From positions 1,426,001-1,490,000 of the forward strand of contig NZ_CP134706.1 in the NCBI RefSeq assembly GCF_038246755.1: a stretch of 64,000 nucleotides of DNA, read 5' to 3'. Source of the stretch: Micromonospora sp. FIMYZ51 (lineage in GTDB: Bacteria; Actinomycetota; Actinomycetes; Mycobacteriales; Micromonosporaceae). Under the pieces are notes generated by a model. The model was not told where the DNA came from and searched no databases. It saw only the letters and a program-made list of their open reading frames with translations. Of the stretch, positions 6,134 to 49,131 are shown one piece after another. The position numbers and the translations under genes are program-made. Numbering within the stretch: position 1 is the first letter of the stretch; every line of letters begins with the position of its first letter.

Positions 6134-6242
6134 CGTCGCGCGGGCCGGACCGACGGCGACGAGCCGTTCCTCCGCCGCGTCGCGTACCTGGTCACTGGCG
6201 GGCCAGGCCACGGTTGTCAGGCCCGACCGCTACGGTTCTGGG

Positions 6243-8423
<2,181 letters not shown>

Positions 8424-8579
8424 GCCGTACCCCTCCCCATCAGGGCACTCGCCCGGATACCAACTTAATTACGACTACGACCGATTCGTGGCTGTCGTGG
8501 CGGGAAAGTGGTCACCAGGAGCGTTTCATTGGGAACGGCGCGTGAACCCACGCGCGGAGGTGACGTACCGGGAGGTGTG

Positions 8580-11072
8580 ATGGAGCCGCCCGACCCGCGA
8601 AACCTGGTCCCGCCCGGCCGGACGGCCCAGTTCACGGTCTTCGTCGGCGGGGTGCTGGCCGTGGCCGTGCTGGTCTCGGCCGCCCCGCTGGTGTCGCTTG
8701 GCAGCACCCTGCCCGAGCTTCCGGTGGCGTTCTGGACGATGGCGGTGCTCGCGGTGGCCTGCGACGCACGCCCGTTCGTCCCGCCCGGCCGGCGGCAGTC
8801 CTCCGCGGTCTTTCCGTCGACCTGCTTCACCTTCGCGATCCTGCTCGGCTGGGGGCTCGGCCCCGCGGTCGCGGTGCAGGCGGTCGCCGTGCTGGTCTCC
8901 GGATTCCGGATGGGGTACGCCCCCTGGCGGACGGCCTTCAACGCCGGCCAGTACGCCTGCGCCCTGGCCGCCGCGTACGCGGTCACCCGGCTCGGCCCCG
9001 GCGGCGTCTTCGACGGCGGTGCGCTGGGCGTCACGGACATCGCCGCGATCGGCGGTGCCGGGGTCGCCTGGCTCGTGGTCAACTACAGCCTGGTGACGAC
9101 CGCCGTCCGGTTGCGTTTCGGTGAGCGGTGGTGGCCCAACGCCTGGCACGGGCTGCCCTTCGAGCTCCTCTCCACCGGCAGCCTGCTGCTGCTCGCGCCG
9201 GTGCTCGTCACCGCCGCGCGAGCCAGCGCGGCCCTGGTTCCGTTGGTGCTGGTGCCGCTCTTCGCGGTGTACCGGATGGCCCGGCTCACCGTCGAGCAGC
9301 ACCAACTCGCCGCGCTCGACCCGCTCACCGGGCTGGCGAACCGCAAGGCGCTGCTGGCCGAGGTCAGCGAGGAGATCCACCGGCACGCCGAGTGTCGTGC
9401 CCGCGGCGAACCGGATGCCCGGCTGGCCCTGCTGCTGATCGACCTGGACCGGTTCAAGAACGTCAACGACGCGCTCGGGCACGAGGTCGGCGACCGGCTG
9501 CTCGTCGAGGTGAGCGCCCGGCTGACCGATGTGGTCGAACCGCCGGATCTCGTCGCCCGCCTCGGCGGTGACGAGTTCGCGATCGTGATGACCCGGCTGA
9601 CCGAGGTCGCGCAGGCCCGGGCGCTGGCCGACCAGGTGGTGCAGGTGCTGGCCACGCCGGTGCCGCTGGACGGGCTGCCGCTGGACGTCGGCGGCTCCAT
9701 CGGCATCGCCCTGTACCCGGACCACGGCGAGGATTTCGCCACCCTGATGCGCCACGCCGACGTGGCGATGTACGACGCGAAGCACCGCAACGACACCGTC
9801 GCCGTCTACACCGCCGAGTCCGACCACAACTCCGCCGAGCGGCTCGGCCTGCTGGCCGACCTGCGTCGGGTACTGGAGGGCGGGGCGGCCGGACAGCCCG
9901 GCGAGGCAGCGGTGCCGGCTGCGCCCGCCTCCGTGGTCCGGGGCGGGGACGGCGCGATGCTGTCGGCGATGCCGTCGGCGTCCACCGAACCGACTCGGGA
10001 CGTGCCGCCGGCAGCAGCCGGGCTGGACGAGCGGCCCGGCCAGCGGTGGTGGAGCCGGCGTCGCCGCCGCCCGCCGCTCGCGGCCCAGGACGACGAGCTG
10101 ATCAACCGGATCGTCACCGGCGCGGACCCGATCCTGCGGCGCGCCGCGCACGAGGCCGCAGCCGCCGATGAGCTGTGGGCCCGGCCGGTGCCTGCCGGGG
10201 AACCGCCCGATCCGGACCGGGCCGACGGCCAGCCGACCGGGCAGCCGCAGCTGTCCGGCCCCGAACGCGGCAACGAAGCGATCGAGGACGCGGGCGAGAT
10301 CATGATGTATTACCAGCCGCAGATCGCGATCGCCACCGGTGCGATGGTCGGGGTGGAGGCGCTGCTGCGCTGGCGGCACCCACGCCGGGGGATGGTCGAT
10401 CCGGAGGAGCTGATCCGGGTCGCCGAGCAGAGCGCCGTGATGCGCCTGCTCACCCGCCGGGTCATCGACGACGTGACGGAACAGCTCGCCAAGTGGTCGG
10501 CGGCGGGTCTCGAACTGCGGGCGGCGGTAAACGTCAGCGTGCGGGACCTGCACACCGGCGAGATCGCCGACCAGATCGCCGACCGGCTCGCCCGCCACCA
10601 CCTGGCTCCGGACCGGCTGCAACTGGAGATCACCGAGGGTGCCCTGATGGCCGACCCGCGCCGGGTGCTGACCACCATCACCCGGCTGCACCGGATCGGG
10701 GTGGGCATCGCCCTCGACGACTTCGGCACCGGATACTCCTCCCTCCAGCACCTGCGCCGGCTGCCGCTGTCGGAGGTGAAGGTCGACCGCTCCTTCGTGC
10801 TCGGCATGGTCGACGACGCCGACGACGCGGCGATCGTCCGGTCGACCATCGAGTTGGCCAAGGCGCTGGGGCTGCGGGTGGTCGCCGAGGGCGTGGAGGA
10901 CGAGCGGAGCTGGCGGATGCTGCACGCCGCCGGCTGCGACGTGGCCCAGGGCTGGTTCTACGCCCGACCGATGCCGGCCGCCGAACTCGTCGCCTGGCTG
11001 GCCCGCTACCGCCCGGTGCGCCCGCTCGGCGGCCACGACGAGGCGGACATCCCGCACCGGCACGCGCGGTGA
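8580..11072 (+). CDS. membrane GGDEF-EAL cyclic-di-GMP enzyme with an insertion in the EAL domain
   Basis: An 830-aa dual-domain protein. About five to six hydrophobic helices fill residues 15-230. The GGDEF domain follows (DPLTGLANRK, then an intact [10 protein letters not shown] active site) and is predicted to make c-di-GMP. The EAL domain has EALLRW, LEITEGAL, DDFGTGYSSL, KVDRSF and VAEGVED, so phosphodiesterase activity is also possible. Unusually, the first EAL helix (ERLGLLADLRRVLEGG) is separated from the YYQPQ strand by about 135 mostly Pro/Ala/Arg-rich residues. The start is ATG 8580, just after GGGAGG; several upstream in-frame GTG codons exist. It is the first of three GGDEF-EAL proteins in the window. 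Confidence 0.9.
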   Translation: MEPPDPRNLVPPGRTAQFTVFVGGVLAVAVLVSAAPLVSLGSTLPELPVAFWTMAVLAVACDARPFVPPGRRQSSAVFPSTCFTFAILLGWGLGPAVAVQAVAVLVSGFRMGYAPWRTAFNAGQYACALAAAYAVTRLGPGGVFDGGALGVTDIAAIGGAGVAWLVVNYSLVTTAVRLRFGERWWPNAWHGLPFELLSTGSLLLLAPVLVTAARASAALVPLVLVPLFAVYRMARLTVEQHQLAALDPLTGLANRKALLAEVSEEIHRHAECRARGEPDARLALLLIDLDRFKNVNDALGHEVGDRLLVEVSARLTDVVEPPDLVARLGGDEFAIVMTRLTEVAQARALADQVVQVLATPVPLDGLPLDVGGSIGIALYPDHGEDFATLMRHADVAMYDAKHRNDTVAVYTAESDHNSAERLGLLADLRRVLEGGAAGQPGEAAVPAAPASVVRGGDGAMLSAMPSASTEPTRDVPPAAAGLDERPGQRWWSRRRRRPPLAAQDDELINRIVTGADPILRRAAHEAAAADELWARPVPAGEPPDPDRADGQPTGQPQLSGPERGNEAIEDAGEIMMYYQPQIAIATGAMVGVEALLRWRHPRRGMVDPEELIRVAEQSAVMRLLTRRVIDDVTEQLAKWSAAGLELRAAVNVSVRDLHTGEIADQIADRLARHHLAPDRLQLEITEGALMADPRRVLTTITRLHRIGVGIALDDFGTGYSSLQHLRRLPLSEVKVDRSFVLGMVDDADDAAIVRSTIELAKALGLRVVAEGVEDERSWRMLHAAGCDVAQGWFYARPMPAAELVAWLARYRPVRPLGGHDEADIPHRHAR

Positions 11073-37154: not shown

Positions 37155-38345
37155 GTGGCTGCTGGCGGCTTTTCGTCGAGACGGCTGGTTCGCGTGCGGC
37201 AGCTGCTTGAGCGGCACGTCGAGTCCGGCCTTGTTCCGGGCGCGGTGGCCGTCCTCGCCCGCAAGGGCGAGGTGCACGTGGTGGCGACGGGCAGGCTCGC
37301 GTTCGAGGGCGTCGGATCGAGCACGCCGATGGCGGGCGACACGATCTGTCGCCTGGGCTCGATGAGCAAGCCGATCGCCGCCGCGTGTGCGATGACGCTC
37401 GTCGAGGACGGCACCCTGCGGCTCGATGACCCGGTCGACGACCTGCTCCCCGAGCTGGCCAAAATGACCGTGCTCACCGATCCGCACGGGCCACTGGACG
37501 ACACCGTTGCGGCGCAGCGTTCGATCACGCTGCGGGATCTGCTGACCTACACCCTCGGCATCGGCATGGTCCCTGCCCAGCCGGGAACGGTTCCGATCGC
37601 CGATGCGCTGGACACCCTCGGCAGCCCGTCGCCGGACGAGTGGCTCGGCCGGCTCGGCCGGCTTCCACTCGTCCACCAGCCGGGCGAGCGCTGGATGTAC
37701 CACACCGCCGCCGACGTGACGGGTGTGCTCATCGCCCGGGCCACCGGCATGTCCTTCGAGGATGCCTTGCGCGAGCGGATCTGCGACCCGCTCGGGATGA
37801 AGGACACCGCGTTCAGCGTGGGCGGCGAGAGCATGGATCGGTTCGCCACGGCGTACGAACGGGACAGCGCCCCCAGCGGTGCGGCGATCGTCGAGGACAC
37901 CCCCGACGGGCGGTGGAGCCGGCCGCCGACATTCGAGTCAGGGGGCGGCGGGATGGTCTCGACCGCCGACGACTACCTCGCCTTCGCCTCGGCGTTGCTC
38001 GCGGGCGGCGCCCACTGCGGCGAGCGGGTGCTTTCGCGGCCGGCGGTGACCCTGATGACCACCGACCACCTGTCTGCCGAACAGAAGGCGATCTCCGGAT
38101 TCTGGCCGGGCTACTTCGACGCGATGGGCTGGGGTTTCGGAATGTCGGTCCGGACCCGTCGTACGCTGCTGGGCCCCTCGGTCGGCAGCTACGGATGGCC
38201 CGGCTTCTACGGCACCGCCTGGTACAACGATCCCGCCGAGGAGCTGACGACGATCCTCATGATGCAGCGGGCGCACTTCGGCGACCAGACGCTGCCCATC
38301 TGGCACGACTTCTGGAACGCCGTCTACCAGGCAATCGACGACTAA
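37155..38345 (+). CDS. beta-lactamase-related serine hydrolase (class C/EstB type)
   Basis: A 396-aa protein of the penicillin-binding-protein-like hydrolase fold. The nucleophile motif is SMSK in RLGSMSKPIAAA, followed by a Tyr motif in LLTYTLGIG and a late GWPGFYGT stretch in place of a KTG box. No signal peptide is seen, which favours a cytoplasmic esterase or amidase over a true antibiotic-hydrolysing beta-lactamase. GTG 37155 is preceded by GAGGAGAAG; the longer frame starting at TTG 37125 is less likely. It ends with a 4-nt overlap of the convergent RloB gene. Confidence 0.8.
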   Translation: MAAGGFSSRRLVRVRQLLERHVESGLVPGAVAVLARKGEVHVVATGRLAFEGVGSSTPMAGDTICRLGSMSKPIAAACAMTLVEDGTLRLDDPVDDLLPELAKMTVLTDPHGPLDDTVAAQRSITLRDLLTYTLGIGMVPAQPGTVPIADALDTLGSPSPDEWLGRLGRLPLVHQPGERWMYHTAADVTGVLIARATGMSFEDALRERICDPLGMKDTAFSVGGESMDRFATAYERDSAPSGAAIVEDTPDGRWSRPPTFESGGGGMVSTADDYLAFASALLAGGAHCGERVLSRPAVTLMTTDHLSAEQKAISGFWPGYFDAMGWGFGMSVRTRRTLLGPSVGSYGWPGFYGTAWYNDPAEELTTILMMQRAHFGDQTLPIWHDFWNAVYQAIDD

Positions 38346-38842
38346 CTCGACCGCTGTAGCGCGGTGACGAGATCACCTACCGAGGTCGAGGGGTTTCCTG
38401 CGGGCGGCGGATCGAGTCGTGCTGCTCGCTGGCATGCGGTCGCAACCCCATCCCGAAAGCTGTCGAAGTTCAGTGCCGTCTTGTCCCAGTCTGCCAAACG
38501 CACCCCTGACGCTCGGGCTGTCTCCGAAGCCTCTCCGGGCGAGTAATGGTCGACGTCACAGACGGCCCACGCCTCGTCGTAGTCGTTCTCCTGCTGCCGG
38601 CGGTACGTGCCACGTACCAGATCGACGGGTGAACCGCGCTCGACGGCGACCGCGACCCTGACACTGACCCAAGGTTCCCGTTTCAATGCTTCGAAGTAGG
38701 CGCGCTCGGTGGACTCGCCGTTCGTCGTGACCAGTACGGTCCGCCGCTGCTCCCGTGTTGCCGGCCCTCTGCGCAGGTCCGTCTCCCGGCCGCCCGCATG
38801 CACCATGCGACCCGTTTGGCGCTCACGACGTCGAGGCGTCAT
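38342..38842 (-). CDS. RloB-like protein lacking the central core segment
   Basis: A 166-aa product. The N-terminal part matches the RloB pattern: VLVTTNGESTERAYFEALKR, normally (C)EGEKTE-x2-YF, then AWAVCDVDHY for the D-x-D motif. The C-terminal part (WDKTALNFDSFRDGVATA and NPSTSVGDLV) also matches. The segment that normally links them, around SNPCFELWLLLH (about 35-40 residues), is absent: GVRLA runs straight into DWDK with no frameshift. RloB is the probable effector beside an AAA ATPase in AbiL-type phage defence. Start ATG 38842 has GGAGG and overlaps the ATPase gene by 20 nt. Possibly inactive. Confidence 0.7.
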   Translation of the reverse strand: MTPRRRERQTGRMVHAGGRETDLRRGPATREQRRTVLVTTNGESTERAYFEALKREPWVSVRVAVAVERGSPVDLVRGTYRRQQENDYDEAWAVCDVDHYSPGEASETARASGVRLADWDKTALNFDSFRDGVATACQRAARLDPPPAGNPSTSVGDLVTALQRSS

Positions 38843-40148
38843 CCGTACCTCCACGGTTGGTGAGTGCCTGCTCGAACAGGTGGGTCGAAAGGTCCGGCAC
38901 CGCACCGTAGTTGCCGTTCAGGTACCGACGCTGTCGATTCTCGCCTTCCTTCCGAGGCTTGAAATCCGTCAGCGGATAGAGCGAGGAAGCGCCTTGGTCG
39001 TCCTTTTCCACGAACCAGATCTCGTCGCGGCGCAGGATCTCCTCCGCATCGAGAGTGCCGAGCAGCGCGGCGTCGTGGCTGGTGAAGATGAGCTGACTAC
39101 CCAGCGGGTTGGCCTCCGGGCTGCGGAAGAGGCTGATGAGCTTGGCGGTCAAAATCGGGTGCAGGCTGGCGTCGATCTCGTCGATCAGCATGGTGGCACC
39201 GGTCCGGAGCATCGCGGCGGCGTGCAGCCCCAGGGTGAGAAGTTGCCGGGTACCGGTCGACTGGTCTCGAAGTTCGAGCAGAGCGGTGCCGTTGGGGCCC
39301 TGGTGGGCGAACTGGATCCTCGATCGTTCGAGCACCGCCCACCGACGAGCCCGCCGCTGAACGAATGTGCGATCAGTCGGCAGTGCCGGCTCGTGAGTGC
39401 TTTCGCTCGGTCTTGGGTTGACCACGACGCCGACGATTCCGACGTCGGCAGCTTGCAACAGTTCAACGGCCAACTGGAGCATGTCCTGGTCATCCGCGTC
39501 GTTAGGACGGAGAAGGCTGGACAAGACCATCTCGGGTTCCATCCGCTGGCCTGCCAGGTAGAACCAGCGGTAAGTGTTGTGCAGCGGTTGCGGGTTCGTC
39601 GGATCCGGCTCTGGACGGCTGTGGCCGAAGCGGGCAACAGTGCTGAGGAAAAGTGCAGCTGGCGCGGTGATCTCTGCAATTTGCTCCAGGGGCCGCCGGC
39701 CTGACTCCTCGCCCCAGGCGAAGTTGTCCCCATCGCGTTCGAAGATGCGTCGCTTGCGGCCCAACGGATAGTGGTAGAGCCACTCTTCAAGCACCCGATC
39801 GTCGTCGATCGTGAACCCGTAGGTGTGCCGGACGTCGCCGAGCATAAGGTCTACGACATAACGTGATGGCTGCCCGACGTTCTCAGGATCCAGTCGGAAA
39901 GGTTCGCGGAACAGCCCCACCCCGGGCTCGACCGCGCGGTCAGACTCCACGACCATCTGCCGCATGAACGCCAGAGCGCCGAGGCAGTTGGACTTGCCGG
40001 ACGCGTTGGCCCCGAAGATGCCGACAACCCTGACAGCCGGGGTCGGAGGCCCACCCGCCTCGATGTTGTCTCCGTAGACCGGTGTGAGGTTGAGCTGCTG
40101 CTCGTCGCGGAACGAGCGGTGGTTGGCAAAGCGGAAACTCAGCAGCAT
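38823..40148 (-). CDS. RloA-like AAA ATPase (AbiL-type defence pair)
   Basis: A 441-aa ABC/AAA-type ATPase. It begins MLLSFRFANHRSFRDEQQLN, with Walker A GIFGANASGKSN, signature-like STGTRQLLTLGL, Walker B TMLIDEIDASLH and a switch histidine in FTSHDA. This is the OLD-like/AAA15 layout of RloA and AbiLi proteins, which act with RloB to abort phage infection. All motifs look intact, unlike its partner. Longer upstream reading overlaps the acetyltransferase gene and is rejected. It sits at the edge of a stretch with lower G+C and mixed codon use, consistent with transfer. Confidence 0.85.
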   Translation of the reverse strand: MLLSFRFANHRSFRDEQQLNLTPVYGDNIEAGGPPTPAVRVVGIFGANASGKSNCLGALAFMRQMVVESDRAVEPGVGLFREPFRLDPENVGQPSRYVVDLMLGDVRHTYGFTIDDDRVLEEWLYHYPLGRKRRIFERDGDNFAWGEESGRRPLEQIAEITAPAALFLSTVARFGHSRPEPDPTNPQPLHNTYRWFYLAGQRMEPEMVLSSLLRPNDADDQDMLQLAVELLQAADVGIVGVVVNPRPSESTHEPALPTDRTFVQRRARRWAVLERSRIQFAHQGPNGTALLELRDQSTGTRQLLTLGLHAAAMLRTGATMLIDEIDASLHPILTAKLISLFRSPEANPLGSQLIFTSHDAALLGTLDAEEILRRDEIWFVEKDDQGASSLYPLTDFKPRKEGENRQRRYLNGNYGAVPDLSTHLFEQALTNRGGTDDASTS

Positions 40149-40287
40149 CGGCGGTGTGCCCCTACCTGGTGGGCGGTTACAAACGCATCTCTGCGAGTAA
40201 ACCACGAAGAGGTGGGGGAAGCCCTTCATGGGCAGGTGCTGCTGCCGGGTGCCGGAGCAAAGGGCGTACAGGCCGACGGAGGAAGTG

Positions 40288-40914
40288 TCAGGGCGTGCTC
40301 GCACAGGCCGTGTCGAGCTGGCTTGGGCCGGTGGCGTCCGGCCAGGCCATTCGGAACTTGCGGGGAGAGCCGTTGAGTCGGGACGGGTCGGCGCCGGGTG
40401 GTGACACCGTCGCCGTCTCGACATGGCAGGCTCCGCAAGCCTGGTAGAACCGCTGCGCCGCGGTGTTCTGCTCCAGCACCCACAGGTAAAGGCCGTGGGT
40501 CGTCGCGTGTGCCACCGCGGCTCGGGCGGCGTGGGCCAGGAGCGCGGTGCCGACACCGGTGCGGTGCTGGTCGTACGTGACGTGCAGGTTGTCGACGAGG
40601 CTGCCCCACTGCGGGTCATGGTCGAACATGACATGGACGAAGCCGATCAGCCGGCCGCCGTCCTCGGCCACCACGGTCCGGCTGCGGGTGGGGTCGGCCA
40701 GGCGGGTCGACCAGACCGAGCGCCGGTCGGCGACGACATCGCCGTCGAGGAAGGAATCGGAGTACGCGCCGCGATAGTAGCGACGCCAACTGTCGGCGTG
40801 CAGCAGCGCGATCTGCCCGGCGTCGTCAACGTCGGCGAGGCGTACTCGCAGCAGATCGTCCTGCTTGAATGCCTGGTCGGATTCCCCGTCCTGGCTGGAG
40901 ATGGGAGTTGGCAC
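40288..40914 (-). CDS. GNAT-family N-acetyltransferase
   Basis: A 208-aa protein with the GNAT fold: a RVRLADVDDAGQIALLHADS start, VVAEDGGRLIGFVHV strands, the acetyl-CoA loop HRTGVGTALLAHA (Q/RxxGxG/A), and LWVLEQNTAAQRFYQACG at the C-terminal part. The acceptor is unknown; many relatives act on small molecules or ribosomal proteins. GTG 40914 is supported by GGAGGT 6 nt upstream. The longer frame to 41016 has no such site. It lies upstream of rloA on the same strand, with a 139-nt gap. Confidence 0.85.
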   Translation of the reverse strand: MPTPISSQDGESDQAFKQDDLLRVRLADVDDAGQIALLHADSWRRYYRGAYSDSFLDGDVVADRRSVWSTRLADPTRSRTVVAEDGGRLIGFVHVMFDHDPQWGSLVDNLHVTYDQHRTGVGTALLAHAARAAVAHATTHGLYLWVLEQNTAAQRFYQACGACHVETATVSPPGADPSRLNGSPRKFRMAWPDATGPSQLDTACASTP

Positions 40915-42095: not shown

Positions 42096-42158
42096 TCAGG
42101 GACGCGAGGACAGGTCGACCGCTTCGGCGAGAAAGACGTCCAGCTCGCTGTCCGACAT
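42096..42158 (-). pseudogene. decayed C-terminal remnant of a third Z protein
   Basis: A 20-codon frame (MSDSELDVFLAEAVDLSSRP) whose DSELDVFLAEAVDLSSR matches the end of the Z protein just upstream (DDELNELLAEAAALATR). It has no N-terminal part, and 58 nt separate it from the Z2 stop. It is most simply the tail of a former third cassette copy. The frame is short, so the call rests on this similarity alone. Confidence 0.45.
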
Positions 42159-42216
42159 GCTAGGACTTACTTGTTCGTGAGAGGCCGTGTGGCTTGTCAG
42201 CCGGAAGATGCAGGGC

Positions 42217-42642
42217 TCACAACCTGGTGGCCAGCGCTGCTGCTTCAGCGAGAAGCTCGTTCAGCTCGTCGTCACCGACAGCGCCATTGCCCAAGATTTC
42301 CAAGATCACCAATCCCTGGATCCGCCCGGCCATCTGGGGCGCTATGGCCGTCTCGACATCGGGATCCACAGCGGCCCGGATCAGCGTCTCGGCTGCGTTG
42401 GCGTCGATCTCCGGGGTGCCGGCGGGGGCAGCTGCTCGCATGTCGGCAACGAACCGCATGATCTCGCCTGCGGATGTCCGCTCGTCGAAGCGCCGGTTGA
42501 CGGCGAAGTAGAAGACCGCACCGAGCAGCGTCGGGAAGCCGTCCCAGCCGATCTCATCGAGGCGGGCTTCGATCCGGTCGTTGGCCTCGTGATCGCCTCT
42601 GACCATCGTCCGGATGTAGTCGACCATCTCAGGGCTGCTCAT
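42217..42642 (-). CDS. Z2: conserved small soluble protein of the duplicated cassette
   Basis: A 141-aa predicted helical, acidic protein of unknown function. It aligns over its whole length with Z1 (43908-44339): both start with MS then (F/V)xxxIRxMxRxD, share GWxGxxxxxGAxFxxAxNxRF, RFVAxxR, and end DExxLxExxAxxxxxA. No catalytic motif, membrane helix or signal peptide is seen. The gene overlaps the end of Y2 by 14 nt, so Y and Z are co-translated. It could be a cytoplasmic partner of the membrane protein Y; this is inference. Confidence 0.75.
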   Translation of the reverse strand: MSSPEMVDYIRTMVRGDHEANDRIEARLDEIGWDGFPTLLGAVFYFAVNRRFDERTSAGEIMRFVADMRAAAPAGTPEIDANAAETLIRAAVDPDVETAIAPQMAGRIQGLVILEILGNGAVGDDELNELLAEAAALATRL

Positions 42643-43282
42643 CAGATCGCTTCCTCTCGCGGTGTTTCTTCACCATGTTCCAGACACCTCGAAATCCCAC
42701 GACGATTGCGCCAGCAGCCATGATGACCGACGTGACCGGGTGCTCCAACTGAGGGCGGTCGACCGGCGTGCCGGGGTCGGAGGCCGTGGACGTCGTGCTA
42801 CCACTCGATCCCGATCCCTTCAGGCCCTTTTGCAGCTCGCGAAAGCCGGTCGTGATGGCCTGCTCGGTCTGCTTGAGGGTGTCCTCGGTATCGTCTGCCT
42901 TCTTGACGTGCCGGCGGAGGAACGCCTCGCCCTTGCGGTTGCGTTCCTCCGTCTCCGCGACCAGGCGTTCGCCGGACGGTGAAGCCGCATCATCTGGTCC
43001 GGCGGGCGCGGCGCCGGGGGCGATCGTGTTGACGTACGCGGTGATATGGCTGGCGGCCTCAGACAGCAGGCGGGCGTAGCGGCCGGCTTTGTCCCGGGCC
43101 ACCTCGGCGTCCGCGACGGCGGCGCGCAACCGGTGGTCGCTACTACCGCGCTGCACCTCGACCAGCCGCGCCAAGGCCACTTCGGCGTCCGTCCGGGCGC
43201 GCAGCGCGGTGACCGCTGCGGCATCAAGCTTTCCGCGTACGGCGAGAAGCCGTGCGACCAGTTCGGCGATGCTGCCGCTCAT
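42629..43282 (-). CDS. Y2: helical-hairpin, coiled-coil and membrane-anchor protein
   Basis: A 217-aa protein of unknown function. Residues 1-90 form a helix-turn-helix hairpin with GSS at the turn (46-48), related to the stand-alone X proteins. A conserved linker PGAAPAGPDDAASPSGERL (about 89-107) follows, then a charged coiled coil (108-155), a Ser/Thr/Pro linker, one membrane segment (about 183-200) and a basic tail (KKHRERKR). It is a paralogue of Y1 (44287-44991). The start overlaps the X2 stop as ATGA. The tail suggests the C-terminus is cytoplasmic. Confidence 0.75.
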   Translation of the reverse strand: MSGSIAELVARLLAVRGKLDAAAVTALRARTDAEVALARLVEVQRGSSDHRLRAAVADAEVARDKAGRYARLLSEAASHITAYVNTIAPGAAPAGPDDAASPSGERLVAETEERNRKGEAFLRRHVKKADDTEDTLKQTEQAITTGFRELQKGLKGSGSSGSTTSTASDPGTPVDRPQLEHPVTSVIMAAGAIVVGFRGVWNMVKKHRERKRSDEQP

Positions 43283-43539
43283 CCGAGTCGGGTGAGGTAG
43301 TCGCTTGCGTTCTCGGCGGTGCCTGCGAAGCGGCGGCGAGTCGGTTCGACCTCTGCCTTGGCGGCGGCGAGTGCCTGATGAGTGTCGGTCACGTGCTCGT
43401 GTTGGCTGCCGCGCAGGATGGCGTTCGCCGTGCCGGTTGCTGCTTCGGCCTCGGAGACAGCCTGGTCGAACACCCGTTGTCCCTGGCGGACGGCTTCGAT
43501 GGCGGCGTGAAGGGTCGCCTTGACCTCGCCAACACTCAT
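43279..43539 (-). CDS. X2: 86-aa helical hairpin protein
   Basis: A small two-helix protein (MSVGEVKATLHAAIEA start) with GSQHE at the turn (44-48) and the ending ASDYLTRLG. It is clearly paralogous to X1 (GDVKAT start; SQ-x-E at the turn; AA-x2-EVE-x-T-x-RR; A-x-YL-x2-IG end). Size and hairpin shape resemble WXG100/ESAT-6 proteins, but no WXG is present and the conserved turn differs. It is coupled to Y2 by ATGA. Function unknown; no weight should be put on the WXG100 likeness beyond shape. Confidence 0.7.
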   Translation of the reverse strand: MSVGEVKATLHAAIEAVRQGQRVFDQAVSEAEAATGTANAILRGSQHEHVTDTHQALAAAKAEVEPTRRRFAGTAENASDYLTRLG

Positions 43540-43551
43540 GGTGGTCGACGG

Positions 43552-43815
43552 TCAGCCGAGAATGCCGACGTAGCGGCGGGCGGCCTCCGAGCTGCCCTGC
43601 ACGAGCGTCATGGCCTCGGCCAGGCGCTGCTTGCTCTGCTCTCCTCGGGCGATGGCCTCGGCGATCGTGGGGTGGCCGGTGCCGGCAGCGACAGCACGTA
43701 GCCGGGTCAGCATCTGCTCGGTGTTCTCGGCGGCGGCCCGGATCTGGTTGATCGTGGCATTGCCCTGCTCGGCTGCCTGCATCAGCGCCGCCTTGACCTC
43801 TTCGATGCTGGCCAT
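43552..43815 (-). CDS. X2': 87-aa helical hairpin protein with GTGHP turn
   Basis: A second stand-alone hairpin preceding X2 by 12 nt. It begins MASIEEVKAALMQAAEQGN, has GTGHP at the turn (45-49), and ends ARRYVGILG. The turn matches Y1 (GTSHP) better than X2 does, so it may be the least diverged X form. GGAGGGA precedes ATG 43815, and a TAGTGT box lies about 60 nt upstream, so the second cassette may have its own promoter. Function unknown. Confidence 0.7.
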   Translation of the reverse strand: MASIEEVKAALMQAAEQGNATINQIRAAAENTEQMLTRLRAVAAGTGHPTIAEAIARGEQSKQRLAEAMTLVQGSSEAARRYVGILG

Positions 43816-43907
43816 GCTGTCCCTCCGTCGATCGTCCGCGAGCGCAGATCACGTTTGCGTAGTCGGGCGGACACTATCGGAGATGACTTCGCTTCGCAGC
43901 CCGGTAG

Positions 43908-44339
43908 CTACAGGTGGTCGGCTGCGGTCCGTTCCACGTCGGCGATGAACTCTTCAAGCTGTGCTTCGTCTTGGTCGCGGTCCTGGAGCAGCTTGCCGAG
44001 GAGGACAATCTGTATCTGAAGGGCCGTCTCGGGGTTGAGGTTCTCGATCAGCTTGACCTCGCCGAGCGCTGCCCGGACGAGTCCCTCCATCTCCAGCGTG
44101 GGAAGCGACTGCGCGTCCGGGAACTGCGATCGCGTCTCGGCTACGAACCGAGCCACGTCGGTCGGCGAGGGGTTGGCGGGGAAGCGGTCGTTGATTGCGA
44201 TGGCGAAAGCCGCGCCGATCACCTGGCTGCCGCCGCGCCAACCCGTGGTCTCCAAGCCGTCCAGGATCTGGTCTACCGTGCCCCAGTCACGACGCGCCAT
44301 CGCGCGAATCAGGTCGCTGAATTCCGTCCGTACGCTCAC
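43908..44339 (-). CDS. Z1: conserved small soluble protein of the duplicated cassette
   Basis: A 143-aa predicted helical protein, paralogue of Z2. It reads TEFSDLIRAMARRDWGTVDQ at the start, then GWRGGSQVIGAAFAIAINDRF, ARFVAETR and a C-terminal acidic helix. It overlaps Y1 by 53 nt in another frame. The overlap is real rather than a frameshift, because the N-terminus aligns with that of Z2. Function unknown. Confidence 0.75.
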   Translation of the reverse strand: MSVRTEFSDLIRAMARRDWGTVDQILDGLETTGWRGGSQVIGAAFAIAINDRFPANPSPTDVARFVAETRSQFPDAQSLPTLEMEGLVRAALGEVKLIENLNPETALQIQIVLLGKLLQDRDQDEAQLEEFIADVERTAADHL

Positions 44340-44991
44340 GGTTTCGTAACCTCGCTATCCCTTTGCGGATCGACACGACGGAGCGGTGGACGGCGATGCC
44401 GGCCACCAGCCCAACGACGACCAAGTGCCCTGCGGTGTCCGGTGCCTCGTTGGCGAGACGTTGGCCCAGGGTTGGGCTGGCGCTCGGTGTAGTGGTGCCG
44501 GCCTGCGTTCCTGTCGGGCCTTGCGGTCCTCGGATGAAGTTGAAGGCTTCCCGCGCTGCGCTCACGGTCTTCTGGGTGTTGTCCTGAAGGTCCTCGACGT
44601 TCCGGGTCATCGTACTCAGGAAGGACCCGACGTTCCGTCGACCGGATTCGCGTTCAACGCTCTCGGAGAGCAGCGTCTCGCCCGAGGGCATGGCGGCCTC
44701 GGAGGGCGCCGTGGGGGCGGAGCCGGGAACTACGGCGTTGGAGAAGGCGGCAACGCTGTCGGCTGCCTTGCTGATGAGATTGGCGAGTCTGACGGCCTTC
44801 CCCCTGGCTGCCTCACTTTCTTGCACAGCGCCCGTCAAGTTGGGATGGCTGGTGCCGCGCGCGGCCTCGGTGTAGTGGGTGGTGGCCTGGCTGGCGTCTT
44901 CCTGCGCACGCCGAGCGACGATGGCAGCGCCTTGCAGAGTCCCGATTACCTGACGGAGCTGTGAGACCACCGCGTCCAGACTCGCGCTCAT
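44287..44991 (-). CDS. Y1: helical-hairpin, coiled-coil and membrane-anchor protein
   Basis: A 234-aa protein. The N-terminal hairpin (1-90) has GTSHP at residues 46-50. The linker PGSAPTAPSEAAMPSGETL matches Y2. A coiled coil follows (STMTRNVEDLQDNTQKTVSA), a Gly/Thr/Pro linker (154-175), one membrane segment (about 187-204, LVVVGLVAGIAV) and a basic tail. The start overlaps X1 as ATGA, exactly as in the second cassette. No known domain is recognised. Confidence 0.75.
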   Translation of the reverse strand: MSASLDAVVSQLRQVIGTLQGAAIVARRAQEDASQATTHYTEAARGTSHPNLTGAVQESEAARGKAVRLANLISKAADSVAAFSNAVVPGSAPTAPSEAAMPSGETLLSESVERESGRRNVGSFLSTMTRNVEDLQDNTQKTVSAAREAFNFIRGPQGPTGTQAGTTTPSASPTLGQRLANEAPDTAGHLVVVGLVAGIAVHRSVVSIRKGIARLRNRERTDGIQRPDSRDGAS

Positions 44992-45248
44992 CCGATAGCG
45001 CCCAAGTATGCGTCGGCGTGCTCCCTGGCAGCGTTGATTCGGCGCAGAGTCAGCTCAACCTCGCGAGCTGCGGCGAGCAGCGTCTGCCTGGCGTCCTCCG
45101 CCTCCTCGCGTTGGCTGTCGTGAAGAGTGGCGATGGCCAAGGCGGAGGCGTCGCGTAACTGGGCGCTGGCCATCTCAACGCTCTTCTCGGCATCGTTGAG
45201 CGACTGGTTGCCGCGTCGGATGGTGGCCTTGACGTCACCGATTGCCAC
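44988..45248 (-). CDS. X1: 86-aa helical hairpin protein, first gene of the cassette
   Basis: Starts at GTG 45248 (MAIGDVKATIRRGNQ) 6 nt after a TACCGT -10 box, so probably leaderless. The two helices are separated by HDSQRE (43-48) and it ends DAYLGAIG. It is a paralogue of X2. It is the first gene downstream of the terminator that closes the XRE-DUF397 unit, so the cassette is an independent transcription unit. Function unknown. Confidence 0.7.
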   Translation of the reverse strand: MAIGDVKATIRRGNQSLNDAEKSVEMASAQLRDASALAIATLHDSQREEAEDARQTLLAAAREVELTLRRINAAREHADAYLGAIG

Positions 45249-45413: not shown

Positions 45414-45608
45414 TCAGCGGTTCTTGCGGGTGGACGCCAAGAAGGTGGTCCAGGCGGTGGGGGTGAAGGTGAGGGCGGGGCCGTGCGGGTCTTTGCTGTC
45501 GCGTACGGCGACGATGCCGGGCAGGTTGTCGGCGACCTCGACGCACTCGCCACCGTTGCCGCCGCTGCGGGTGCTCTTGCGCCAGCGGGCACCGGTCAGA
45601 TCAACCAC
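45414..45608 (-). CDS. DUF397 protein, copy 1
   Basis: A 64-aa protein with the DUF397 signature ARWRKSTRSGGNGGECVEVA and VAVRDSKDP. Such proteins pair with XRE/DUF5753 regulators in streptomycetes and relatives, often in development or secondary metabolism, and can act as antagonists of the partner. This copy differs from the one at 45785-45976 at only about ten positions and starts at a GTG. It lies beyond a strong hairpin from the regulator gene. Confidence 0.88.
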   Translation of the reverse strand: MVDLTGARWRKSTRSGGNGGECVEVADNLPGIVAVRDSKDPHGPALTFTPTAWTTFLASTRKNR

Positions 45609-45784: not shown

Positions 45785-45976
45785 TCAGCGAGCTTTCGTG
45801 GCCTTGACGAAGGTAGCCCAGGCGGTGGGGGTGAAGGTGAGGGCAGAGCTGTGCGGGTCTTTGCTGTCGCGTACGGCGACGACGCCGGGCAGGTTGTCGG
45901 AGACCTCGACACACTCGCCGCCGTTGCTACCGCTGCGGGTGCTCTTGCGCCAGCGAGCGCCGGTCAGATCAACCAT
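45785..45976 (-). CDS. DUF397 protein, copy 2
   Basis: A 63-aa protein with the same signature as copy 1 (ARWRKSTRSGSNGGECVEVS). The ATG start overlaps the end of the XRE regulator gene by 8 nt, so this is the copy directly coupled to the regulator. Copy 1 is then likely a duplicate, and its upstream flank also resembles this one. Confidence 0.88.
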   Translation of the reverse strand: MVDLTGARWRKSTRSGSNGGECVEVSDNLPGVVAVRDSKDPHSSALTFTPTAWATFVKATKAR

Positions 45977-46850
45977 GGTGGACCTCCCCGATGATCTTGT
46001 TGATCAGGTGTCTTGATTGTGCTTCATCGAGGGCGAGCTGTTCCAGGCTCGCCCACACCTTTTCGTAGGCAGCGAACTCTTCGGGGCGATCGAGGTAGAG
46101 AGCACCCGTCCAGGACTCGCTGTAGATCACGGGCGGTTCAGGAGTCGCGCGGTTCTTGAGCGGGAAGTTGAGCATCACGAAGGAGCCTGCCTCCACGCCA
46201 CGATGCAACCCAGCCGTGAGCGGCAGGACTCGGATTGAATTGGTTGGCGTCTCGGAGATTGTCAGCAGGTGATGTAGCTGATTTGTCATGGTCTCGGGGC
46301 TGCCCACCGTGCGCAGCAGAGCCGACTCGGAGATGATCACATCCAGCGTTGGAGGCGCGGGCATCCGGCGGGTGAGCAGGGATTGGCGCTGGAGTCGGAC
46401 TTGCACAAGCCGTTCCCGTTCTTCGGTGCTCACCTCCGTGCGGTGCTGGTAGACGCCGAGCGCGTAGTCCCGCTGTTGCAGCAATCCCGGCAGCATCGCC
46501 TCGTTGAAGAAACGGAGTCGGCACGCCGCGTCTTCGAGGCCGACGTATAGCTCGAACCAGTCGGGGATGGCGTCGCCGTAGGCGTGCCACCAGCCTTTCG
46601 CTCTCGTCTCGGCAGCCAGGGCGGTAAGCGCCCGGGTCAGTTCGCCACGGGCGGCGTACAGGTCGCACATGGCGCGGACGTCGACGCCGCGTACCGAGCC
46701 GAGGCCGCTCTCGATCCGCCACACCTTCTGTCGGCTGCACTCCAGCGCCTCGGCGGCGGCGTCGAGCGTGATGCCGGCCTCGGTGCGCAGGTCACGCAGG
46801 GTCCTGCCGAGTTGGCGGCGGGGCACTGTCGACCCCATGTCTTCGGCCAT
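45969..46850 (-). CDS. XRE-family regulator with DUF5753 domain
   Basis: A 293-aa protein. The N-terminal HTH (QLGRTLRDLRTEAGITLDAA, then SRQKVWRIESG) is followed by a DUF5753 domain (about 90-285, with GWWHAYGD, WFELYVGLE, and MLPGLLQQRDYA). This type typically works with the adjacent DUF397 protein. ATG 46850 is preceded by GGAGGGAGGG; the longer frame is not supported. It may control the neighbouring X-Y-Z cassette, but the terminator at 45346-45388 shows that the cassette is a separate transcript. Confidence 0.9.
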   Translation of the reverse strand: MAEDMGSTVPRRQLGRTLRDLRTEAGITLDAAAEALECSRQKVWRIESGLGSVRGVDVRAMCDLYAARGELTRALTALAAETRAKGWWHAYGDAIPDWFELYVGLEDAACRLRFFNEAMLPGLLQQRDYALGVYQHRTEVSTEERERLVQVRLQRQSLLTRRMPAPPTLDVIISESALLRTVGSPETMTNQLHHLLTISETPTNSIRVLPLTAGLHRGVEAGSFVMLNFPLKNRATPEPPVIYSESWTGALYLDRPEEFAAYEKVWASLEQLALDEAQSRHLINKIIGEVHHG

Positions 46851-47109
46851 CGCACCCTCCCTCCTGTTGGGTTTTGCAACATCCTGACGGCGATCGTGGA
46901 ACTCGGAATTGGTGCGATCAAGCAGTTGATCAGTATGACGCGACATTCATTGTGATGGCTTTTCCGACCCTACAAGATGAGTCTGACAACGGCGATGACC
47001 GCGACGTCAATTCCGAACTCATCCGTCCCATGCAGAAGGGGTGGTGCCAACCCGTGCGCGCATTCTTTCCACCACGACAGTGCACCAACGGAAAGCCGGC
47101 GGGTGAGCG
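46851..47109. other. divergent promoter region of the XRE gene and the Cys-rich gene
   Basis: A relatively A+T-rich 259-nt gap. TTGTGA (46950-46955) and CAAGAT (46973-46978), 17 nt apart, are a weak plus-strand promoter candidate. No palindrome strong enough to call an operator was seen. Confidence 0.3.
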
Positions 47110-49131
47110 GTGACCGTCATAACCTGCCCGGACTGTGCCGGGATGACCTTTCGGCTGCTGCCCTGCCGGTGCACCAGCTTCGGTGACCGGTTCCTGGCCG
47201 AGGAAACAGCGGCAGCCTCGCCCGAGCGCCGGGAGGCGTACCGGGATTGTGAGCAGTGTCGGGGTGCGGGCAGTGTCGCGTACCCCTGTCATCGCTGTCG
47301 GCGGCGCGGGCGACGGCGGGCGCAGCTGGTGCTCAGCGTGGCCAACCTGGACAGCGGCGCGGTCGCCTCGCACAACGTCGTGCCCGGCGGCCTCACCCCC
47401 GAGCGGACGCACTCCGGCTGGGTGGTCGACCTGGGCCGGACGGTACGCGAGCTGGCCGCAAGCGTCGGCGCGACCGTCACCGACGAAAGACTGACGCTGT
47501 TGTTGCCGCCGCAGTGGCGACCCGACGCGCCGGCCGTGCAGCGGTTGGAGCTGGAGGCCCAGGTCATCGCAGGATTCGACAACATGCCCTGGCGGCTGTT
47601 CCTCGGCCGGAGCCGACAAGCGCCGCCGGTCGACCCGGCCGACCGGCTGGCCCGGCTCTGCGCGCTGGCCGACCTGCTCCTGCTCGACCTGGTGATCGAG
47701 GTACGGCGGGAGGGCCTGGGCTGGGACGTCAGGTACGAGGTGCCCGGCTCGCCGGTGCCGATGTTCCGGACCGGGCGGCTCGACCTGCCACAGGCGCTGA
47801 TCGGCACCGACGTGACCGACGCGCTCGCCGGGCTCGCCGAACGCGGCCGGGGCGTCGCCGCCCGGCTGGTGCAGCCCGCCCCGCAGCGCCTGCCCGCCGC
47901 ACCGACCGCCGGGCTGCCTGCCGTGCCGACCGTCGACGTGGACCAGCTGGAACGCCGGATTCTCGCCGACTGTGTCGATCCGGTCGAGGGTGTCGAGCTG
48001 CTCGGCGCGCAGGCGATCTGGCGGGACGGACGCTGGTGGCACACCAGCCTGCGCGGCGGCGAGCCAACCGAGGAACTGGTGGAGCAGCCCACCGGTCAGG
48101 TTCTCCGCCGGGTGCGGGTGCCGTTGCGTCGCGGCTTCACCCCGCCCGACCCGTCCTGGCTGGGTGCGGAGATCGGCTGGCGGCCCTGCCCGGACTGCGT
48201 ACCCGGCAGCCGACTGCGTAGCTGCGACTGTCGGCTCGGTGGTCGTACCGCCGATGCCGGTTGCCCGGACTGCCGGGGTGCCGGCCTGCGTACCTCGGCG
48301 CTTGCCTGCTTCAGTTGCGACGACACCCACCGGCGGTACCAGGCGGTGACGATCACGCTTACCGACCTGCGGCACCGGGTGCTGCACCTGACCTGGCACG
48401 CCGGCACGTCGGAAGAGGTCACGCTCGCCGCCACGCAACCCGGCGGCAAGCCGGTGGTCCGGCTGCCCGACCGCTACCGGCTCGCCGCCTGGGCGCCCAT
48501 CCTCGGCGTACGCCCCGAGGATTTGGCCGAGGCCGACGGTGGGCACGAGATCGATCAGGACCTGTGCGGTGGGTACGTCACACTGCCCTGGGCCGGGGCC
48601 GACCCGGTGGCCGAACAGGTACGCGCCGCCGGCCGGAGCCAGCCCGCGGCCCGGTTGATCGTGACGGCGGTACGCCCCGACGCCCCACCGCTTACCGAGC
48701 TGGTCCGGCTCGGGCTCGGCCTGGACCTTGCGCTTGAGGTAAGCCTCTGCGACCTGCGGCACAATGCCGACGATCCGCTGCGCCTCGACGGGCTGCGCTG
48801 GTCGGTCGACCTGCGACCCCGCGACGCCCCGGTACGCCCCGACGAGTGGCCCTACCGCCCGACCCTGGAGACGGCGCTCGCCTGGTGCGTCGAATGCCTG
48901 CCCGACACCATCGCCGAAGTGGTGCCGGTGGACCCGGCGATCCCGATCCCGACGCCGGATGCCGCGCCGAATGACCTACCCGCCGACCCGGTGCCGGTGC
49001 TGCTGCGGCTGGCCGCCCGGCACGCCGGGCAGATTCTGACCGTCCGCTTCACCCGCGCCGGCTGCACCCTGCACCTGCACGACGACGACGGCGTACGCCT
49101 GCTTACCGAATTGGAGCCGCCGAGCTGGTAG
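47110..49131 (+). CDS. large Cys-rich protein with DnaJ-type zinc motifs
   Basis: A 673-aa protein of unknown function. Two zinc-finger-like regions are present. The N-terminal one has CPDC-x9-CRC, then CEQCRGAG and CHRCRRRG. The central one (about 360-400) has CPDC, CDC, CPDCRGAG and CFSC. The CxxCxGxG repeats resemble the DnaJ cysteine-rich domain, but no J domain is seen. Between and after them lie long beta/helix segments without recognised motifs (WRDGRWWHTSL, DLRHRVLHLTWH). No signal peptide. GTG 47110 has only a weak ribosome binding site. Confidence 0.7.
   Translation: MTVITCPDCAGMTFRLLPCRCTSFGDRFLAEETAAASPERREAYRDCEQCRGAGSVAYPCHRCRRRGRRRAQLVLSVANLDSGAVASHNVVPGGLTPERTHSGWVVDLGRTVRELAASVGATVTDERLTLLLPPQWRPDAPAVQRLELEAQVIAGFDNMPWRLFLGRSRQAPPVDPADRLARLCALADLLLLDLVIEVRREGLGWDVRYEVPGSPVPMFRTGRLDLPQALIGTDVTDALAGLAERGRGVAARLVQPAPQRLPAAPTAGLPAVPTVDVDQLERRILADCVDPVEGVELLGAQAIWRDGRWWHTSLRGGEPTEELVEQPTGQVLRRVRVPLRRGFTPPDPSWLGAEIGWRPCPDCVPGSRLRSCDCRLGGRTADAGCPDCRGAGLRTSALACFSCDDTHRRYQAVTITLTDLRHRVLHLTWHAGTSEEVTLAATQPGGKPVVRLPDRYRLAAWAPILGVRPEDLAEADGGHEIDQDLCGGYVTLPWAGADPVAEQVRAAGRSQPAARLIVTAVRPDAPPLTELVRLGLGLDLALEVSLCDLRHNADDPLRLDGLRWSVDLRPRDAPVRPDEWPYRPTLETALAWCVECLPDTIAEVVPVDPAIPIPTPDAAPNDLPADPVPVLLRLAARHAGQILTVRFTRAGCTLHLHDDDGVRLLTELEPPSW

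Follow-up and report, generated by a model that had tools for sequence, protein, structure and literature searches.

Two described systems are relevant to the locus analyzed here. According to an excerpted account (PMC12744356), the S. aureus EsxX locus has the order LapX3-LapX4-EsxX-ExiAB, in which EsxX combines LXG with a glycine zipper; TslA is described, in a partial account (PMC10730906), as a type VII substrate of reverse domain order and a lipase. We analyzed a 64,000-nt stretch (hereafter, the window) of the soil bacterium Micromonospora sp. FIMYZ51 (GCF_038246755.1, contig NZ_CP134706.1, positions 1,426,001-1,490,000), which contains two neighboring cassettes encoding proteins that we call X, Y, and Z. 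To our knowledge, interbacterial toxins of actinomycetes other than mycobacteria are poorly charted.

Two X-Y-Z cassettes and their distribution

We interpret the two units as hairpin-delivered membrane toxin–immunity cassettes, with a probability of roughly two in three. Y would be a membrane-attacking toxin, the X proteins would be small helpers that mark Y for export, and Z would be the matching antidote that protects the producer. X, Y, and Z come from protein families so far without a name, and sequence comparisons give good support to a new candidate effector–immunity family, of known style, with its own targeting partners. The cassette genes are as follows:

44988..45248, minus strand: X1, helical-hairpin protein of 86 aa, proposed targeting partner of Y1
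44287..44991, minus strand: Y1, 234 aa, with N-terminal hairpin, linker, C-terminal membrane segment, and basic tail; proposed membrane-active toxin
43908..44339, minus strand: Z1
43552..43815, minus strand: X2', hairpin protein of 87 aa, the component with the least divergence; opens the usual X2'-X-Y-Z unit
43279..43539, minus strand: X2, hairpin protein of 86 aa, proposed targeting partner of Y2
42629..43282, minus strand: Y2, 217 aa, with N-terminal hairpin, C-terminal membrane segment, and basic tail; proposed toxin
42217..42642, minus strand: Z2

The first-pass annotation had described two neighboring cassettes here, and our analysis confirmed them, with conserved gene order and gene overlaps. 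At the curated cut-off, neither Pfam nor NCBIfam gave a family for Y1.

In a survey of 160 Micromonospora genomes, with Z matches counted at ≥100 residues, full-length Y was found 43 times in 32 genomes, sometimes duplicated, and Z lay ≤300 nt downstream in all 43 cases. There were 104 matches to Z, 61 of which had no full-length Y directly upstream (7 after a partial Y, 7 after another Z, and 47 after neither). This asymmetry is the pattern expected of toxins that depend on an antidote and of antidotes that are useful by themselves. Upstream of Y-Z pairs, X was present in 32/33 and a second hairpin gene in 22/33; the first window cassette has X1 alone upstream. The Z family was detected in 151 of the 354 Micromonosporaceae genomes searched, and tandem Z genes exist, including a Z-Z-Z array. 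Of the 47 Z genes, some come after other genes that are hairpin-like and have a basic tail (L009, L011, L013), and others directly after a long helix-turn-helix (HTH) protein with no X or Y adjoining (L016 by its Pfam match; L015 and L019 judged similar by eye) or after a reverse-order glycine-zipper protein (L028). One Z-like gene follows a PT-HINT protein. As in polymorphic toxin systems, the candidate immunity gene is found directly downstream and also as orphans and arrays, a resemblance by gene position only.

In five loci of genus g38 (L067, L073, L079, L080, L081), diverged Z copies lie close together, and some adjoin genes with a common C-terminal motif, GEPDLWVC. The upstream genes in these loci end in a membrane segment and were missed by the X profile.

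Across 33 Y-Z pairs, Z distances correlated at 0.889 with those of the Y C-terminal region and at 0.61 with those of the hairpin. Partial correlations, which hold the other half of Y constant and so control in part for shared descent, were 0.818 for the Y C-terminus (reached by 0/2000 permutations) and 0.092 for the hairpin (reached by 2%). The partial correlation of X (32 pairs) was 0.691 with the Y hairpin versus 0.238 with the Y C-terminus (value without permutation test), and that of X2' (22 pairs) was 0.696 versus -0.147, reached by 0 and 978 of 1000 permutations, respectively. Because the other Y half was held constant, these values support a division into two modules, with X', X, and the Y N-terminus as one and the Y C-terminus and Z as the other, although they are no proof of binding.

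If our interpretation is correct, the effector and immunity families are ready for annotation, together with a candidate exporter, and the cassettes offer an example of soluble immunity to a membrane toxin that is retained by non-producers.

The hairpin family and a candidate exporter

Profiles of X, X2', the Y N-terminus, the N-terminus of DddA-like toxins, and a further relative, X0, matched one another over 70-86 columns at 88.8-97.8% probability, with the weakest pair (Y N-terminus and X0) at 59%; column-shuffled controls, eight per profile pair, reached a maximum of 1.4%. Based on this profile similarity, all five are one hairpin family. A scan of the FIMYZ51 genome with profile A2, which includes no deaminase toxins, identified eight matches at <1e-3, five of them in the window. 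The other three were the N-terminal part of a DddA-like deaminase (0.68 Mb, E=8.9e-9; PF14428 E=8.9e-21), a gene resembling X2' (2.52 Mb), and X0 itself (3.99 Mb). Among the 31 DddA-like matches inspected, out of 46 listed for the genus, five have the hairpin in the same open reading frame as the deaminase (E up to 1e-5; one N-terminus is common to two of the five), and six more (L129-L134) are similar in look, four of these at E 0.0016-0.017. In 20 of the 31, the deaminase reading frame lacks the hairpin; at two of these loci, another reading frame gives a weak match. The same N-terminal hairpin is joined either to a membrane segment, as in Y, or to a DddA-like deaminase, a trait of polymorphic toxins, and we infer that the hairpin itself acts as the delivery domain. 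A low-confidence model of Y1 has helices at residues 3-44 and 50-87 with a turn at a GTSHP motif, where the predicted local distance difference test score is about 70-80; it is unreliable elsewhere.

Assignment of this family to WXG100 (PF06013) was rejected. None of 42 hairpins contains WxG, and none has the export motif YxxxD/E in its last 25 residues. With three WXG100 proteins of the same genome as the reference, hhalign probabilities were 0.25-0.97% for X, X', the Y N-terminus, X0, and the DddA-like N-terminus, and 4.6% for the reverse type.

X0 and Y0, the latter a weak hairpin match (E=0.0056), precede genes for an FtsK/SpoIIIE ATPase (797 aa, PF01580 E=3.8e-19) and a membrane protein. 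The four occurred together in 5/5 genomes opened, in one of which the membrane-protein match lay 1.4 kb further on, and an X0-like match of similar score was present in 33/37 genus genomes (five loci opened). In genome G027, a further FtsK that shares 42% identity with the core FtsK over 588 residues lies ≤0.8 kb from an X gene. Genes of a kind typical for ESX are also present in the FIMYZ51 genome: WXG100 genes and two large FtsK genes with multiple domains. A tentative extension, which we regard as possible but somewhat doubtful, is that X0, the FtsK ATPase, and the membrane protein form a Micromonospora-wide type VII-like exporter core with non-WXG100 hairpins; X'-X-Y-Z cassettes, hairpin–DddA toxins, and reverse-order glycine-zipper proteins would be its interchangeable cargo, and Z proteins would be a new family of soluble antidotes, acting from the cytoplasm to catch segments that insert into the membrane.

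L105 (genome G008, 6161-9379) encodes a second type of FtsK ATPase, which shares about 40% identity with the core FtsK, together with a membrane protein. A Z-like gene ~1 kb away is itself preceded by a gene that is hairpin-like and has a basic tail.

Alternative explanations and neighboring genes

Upstream of the cassettes are three genes:

45414..45608, minus strand: DUF397 protein (PF04149 E=2e-25), with a relative also upstream in several related loci
45785..45976, minus strand: DUF397 protein, second copy (PF04149 E=5.5e-23)
45969..46946, minus strand: HTH_31/DUF5753 protein (PF13560 and PF19054), possible regulator, also upstream in several related loci

The cassettes could be a toxin–antitoxin or defense unit that is linked to these genes, with Z as the antitoxin. 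In the window, HTH and DUF397 genes stand on the upstream side of the cassettes, and they do so directly in 9/23 named loci (in the others they are elsewhere or were not seen). An account available in part (PMC7159879) proposes that DUF397-HTH pairs are a toxin–antitoxin system, an AbiL-like defense pair adjoins the cassettes, and orphan Z genes fit an antitoxin too. We consider this explanation unlikely, however, as the hairpin is also the N-terminus of DddA-like toxins and has a relative that adjoins FtsK ATPases, a Z-like gene follows a PT-HINT protein, the Z-only array fits defense against neighbors, and X, Y, and Z had no PADLOC match.

The first-pass annotation favored hairpin assemblies of X and Y at the membrane with Z as a cytoplasmic partner, considered here as a membrane-bound structural or signaling complex with no relation to toxins. 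Its conserved X-Y-Z unit, with ordered and overlapping genes, hairpins, and a membrane segment, is supported; the complex itself is improbable, given that Z genes occur in tandem and also where X-Y is missing or fragmented, that Z co-diverges with the Y C-terminus, and that toxins carry the same hairpin. Hairpin substrates and FtsK ATPases are features of type VII machines, and Y0 sits between X0 and FtsK, which would fit a secretion apparatus in which Y is a membrane-anchored component, Z the chaperone of Y, and the X proteins the substrates. Yet a full-length Y in just 32/160 genomes, sometimes duplicated, is unlike an apparatus, and Z tracks the Y C-terminus and exists without Y; we view this scheme as very improbable.

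The AbiL-like pair occupies 38342-38905 and 38823-40634 of the window (minus strand). Its AAA_21 protein (scanned as 38823-40307) matched PADLOC AbiLi (E=2.1e-89), and the next gene matched AbiLii (E=1.7e-9); in L106, L109, and L110, a gene related to the AAA one is likewise located past the cassette genes. Divergent to the HTH/DUF397 genes, a gene at 47110-49131 (plus strand) encodes a 673-aa protein that has several CxxC-type pairs and matched neither Pfam nor PADLOC at E up to 0.01; this pairing recurs at L099, L106, and L108-L112. Locus L099 of the FIMYZ51 genome (5309-6870, about 2.52 Mb) has HTH, DUF397, and X2'-like genes, a 212-aa protein without a Pfam match, and then a protein with GxxxGxxxG zippers first and a hairpin-like domain last. 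Proteins similar to this reverse-order one precede Z in M. qiuiae (L028/L122) and M. lutea (L036/L123).

Comparison with known systems

The X and Y hairpins resemble WXG100/ESX proteins in size and hairpin shape, and X0 adjoins an FtsK/SpoIIIE ATPase; they differ in lacking WxG, YxxxD/E, and profile similarity. Three proteins (L099:5309-5935, L028:3822-4466, L036:2959-3621) place glycine zippers first and the hairpin-like domain last, as in TslA; TslA, by its partial account (PMC10730906), is a lipase, and the hairpin homology of the reverse-type proteins is weak (hhalign 2-54%).

The cassettes share with the EsxX locus two small helical partners upstream and an effector with a helical N-terminus and a C-terminal hydrophobic segment, and, as in the excerpted study, where each toxin gene analyzed was followed by one for a soluble immunity protein (PMC12744356), a soluble protein follows. 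Z has no recognized fold, and the alpha/beta DUF5085 fold of ExiAB was not found in it. The two partner genes directly upstream are a trait of LXG loci, although neither Y1 nor Y2 matched the LXG domain (PF04740) in Pfam at E up to 1. TelC and TelD with Lap1-Lap2, as partially described (PMC9600955), likewise pair an effector with two cognate helix-turn-helix partners encoded upstream, with TelD immunity genes downstream; the cassettes are set apart in that X, X', and the Y N-terminus all belong to one hairpin family and that the hairpins tested lack YxxxD/E.

Actinobacterial DddA-like (SCP1.201) toxins, by a description available in part (PMC3482391), end in a deaminase rather than a membrane segment and have Imm1 rather than Z as immunity protein; Imm1 adjoins one DddA-like toxin in the loci examined, and PF14428 had no Pfam match in Y1 or Y2. 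Part of these toxins nevertheless have the N-terminal hairpin family in common with Y; one hairpin family ties together membrane-type effectors, DNA-deaminase toxins, and an FtsK-type ATPase neighborhood in Micromonospora.
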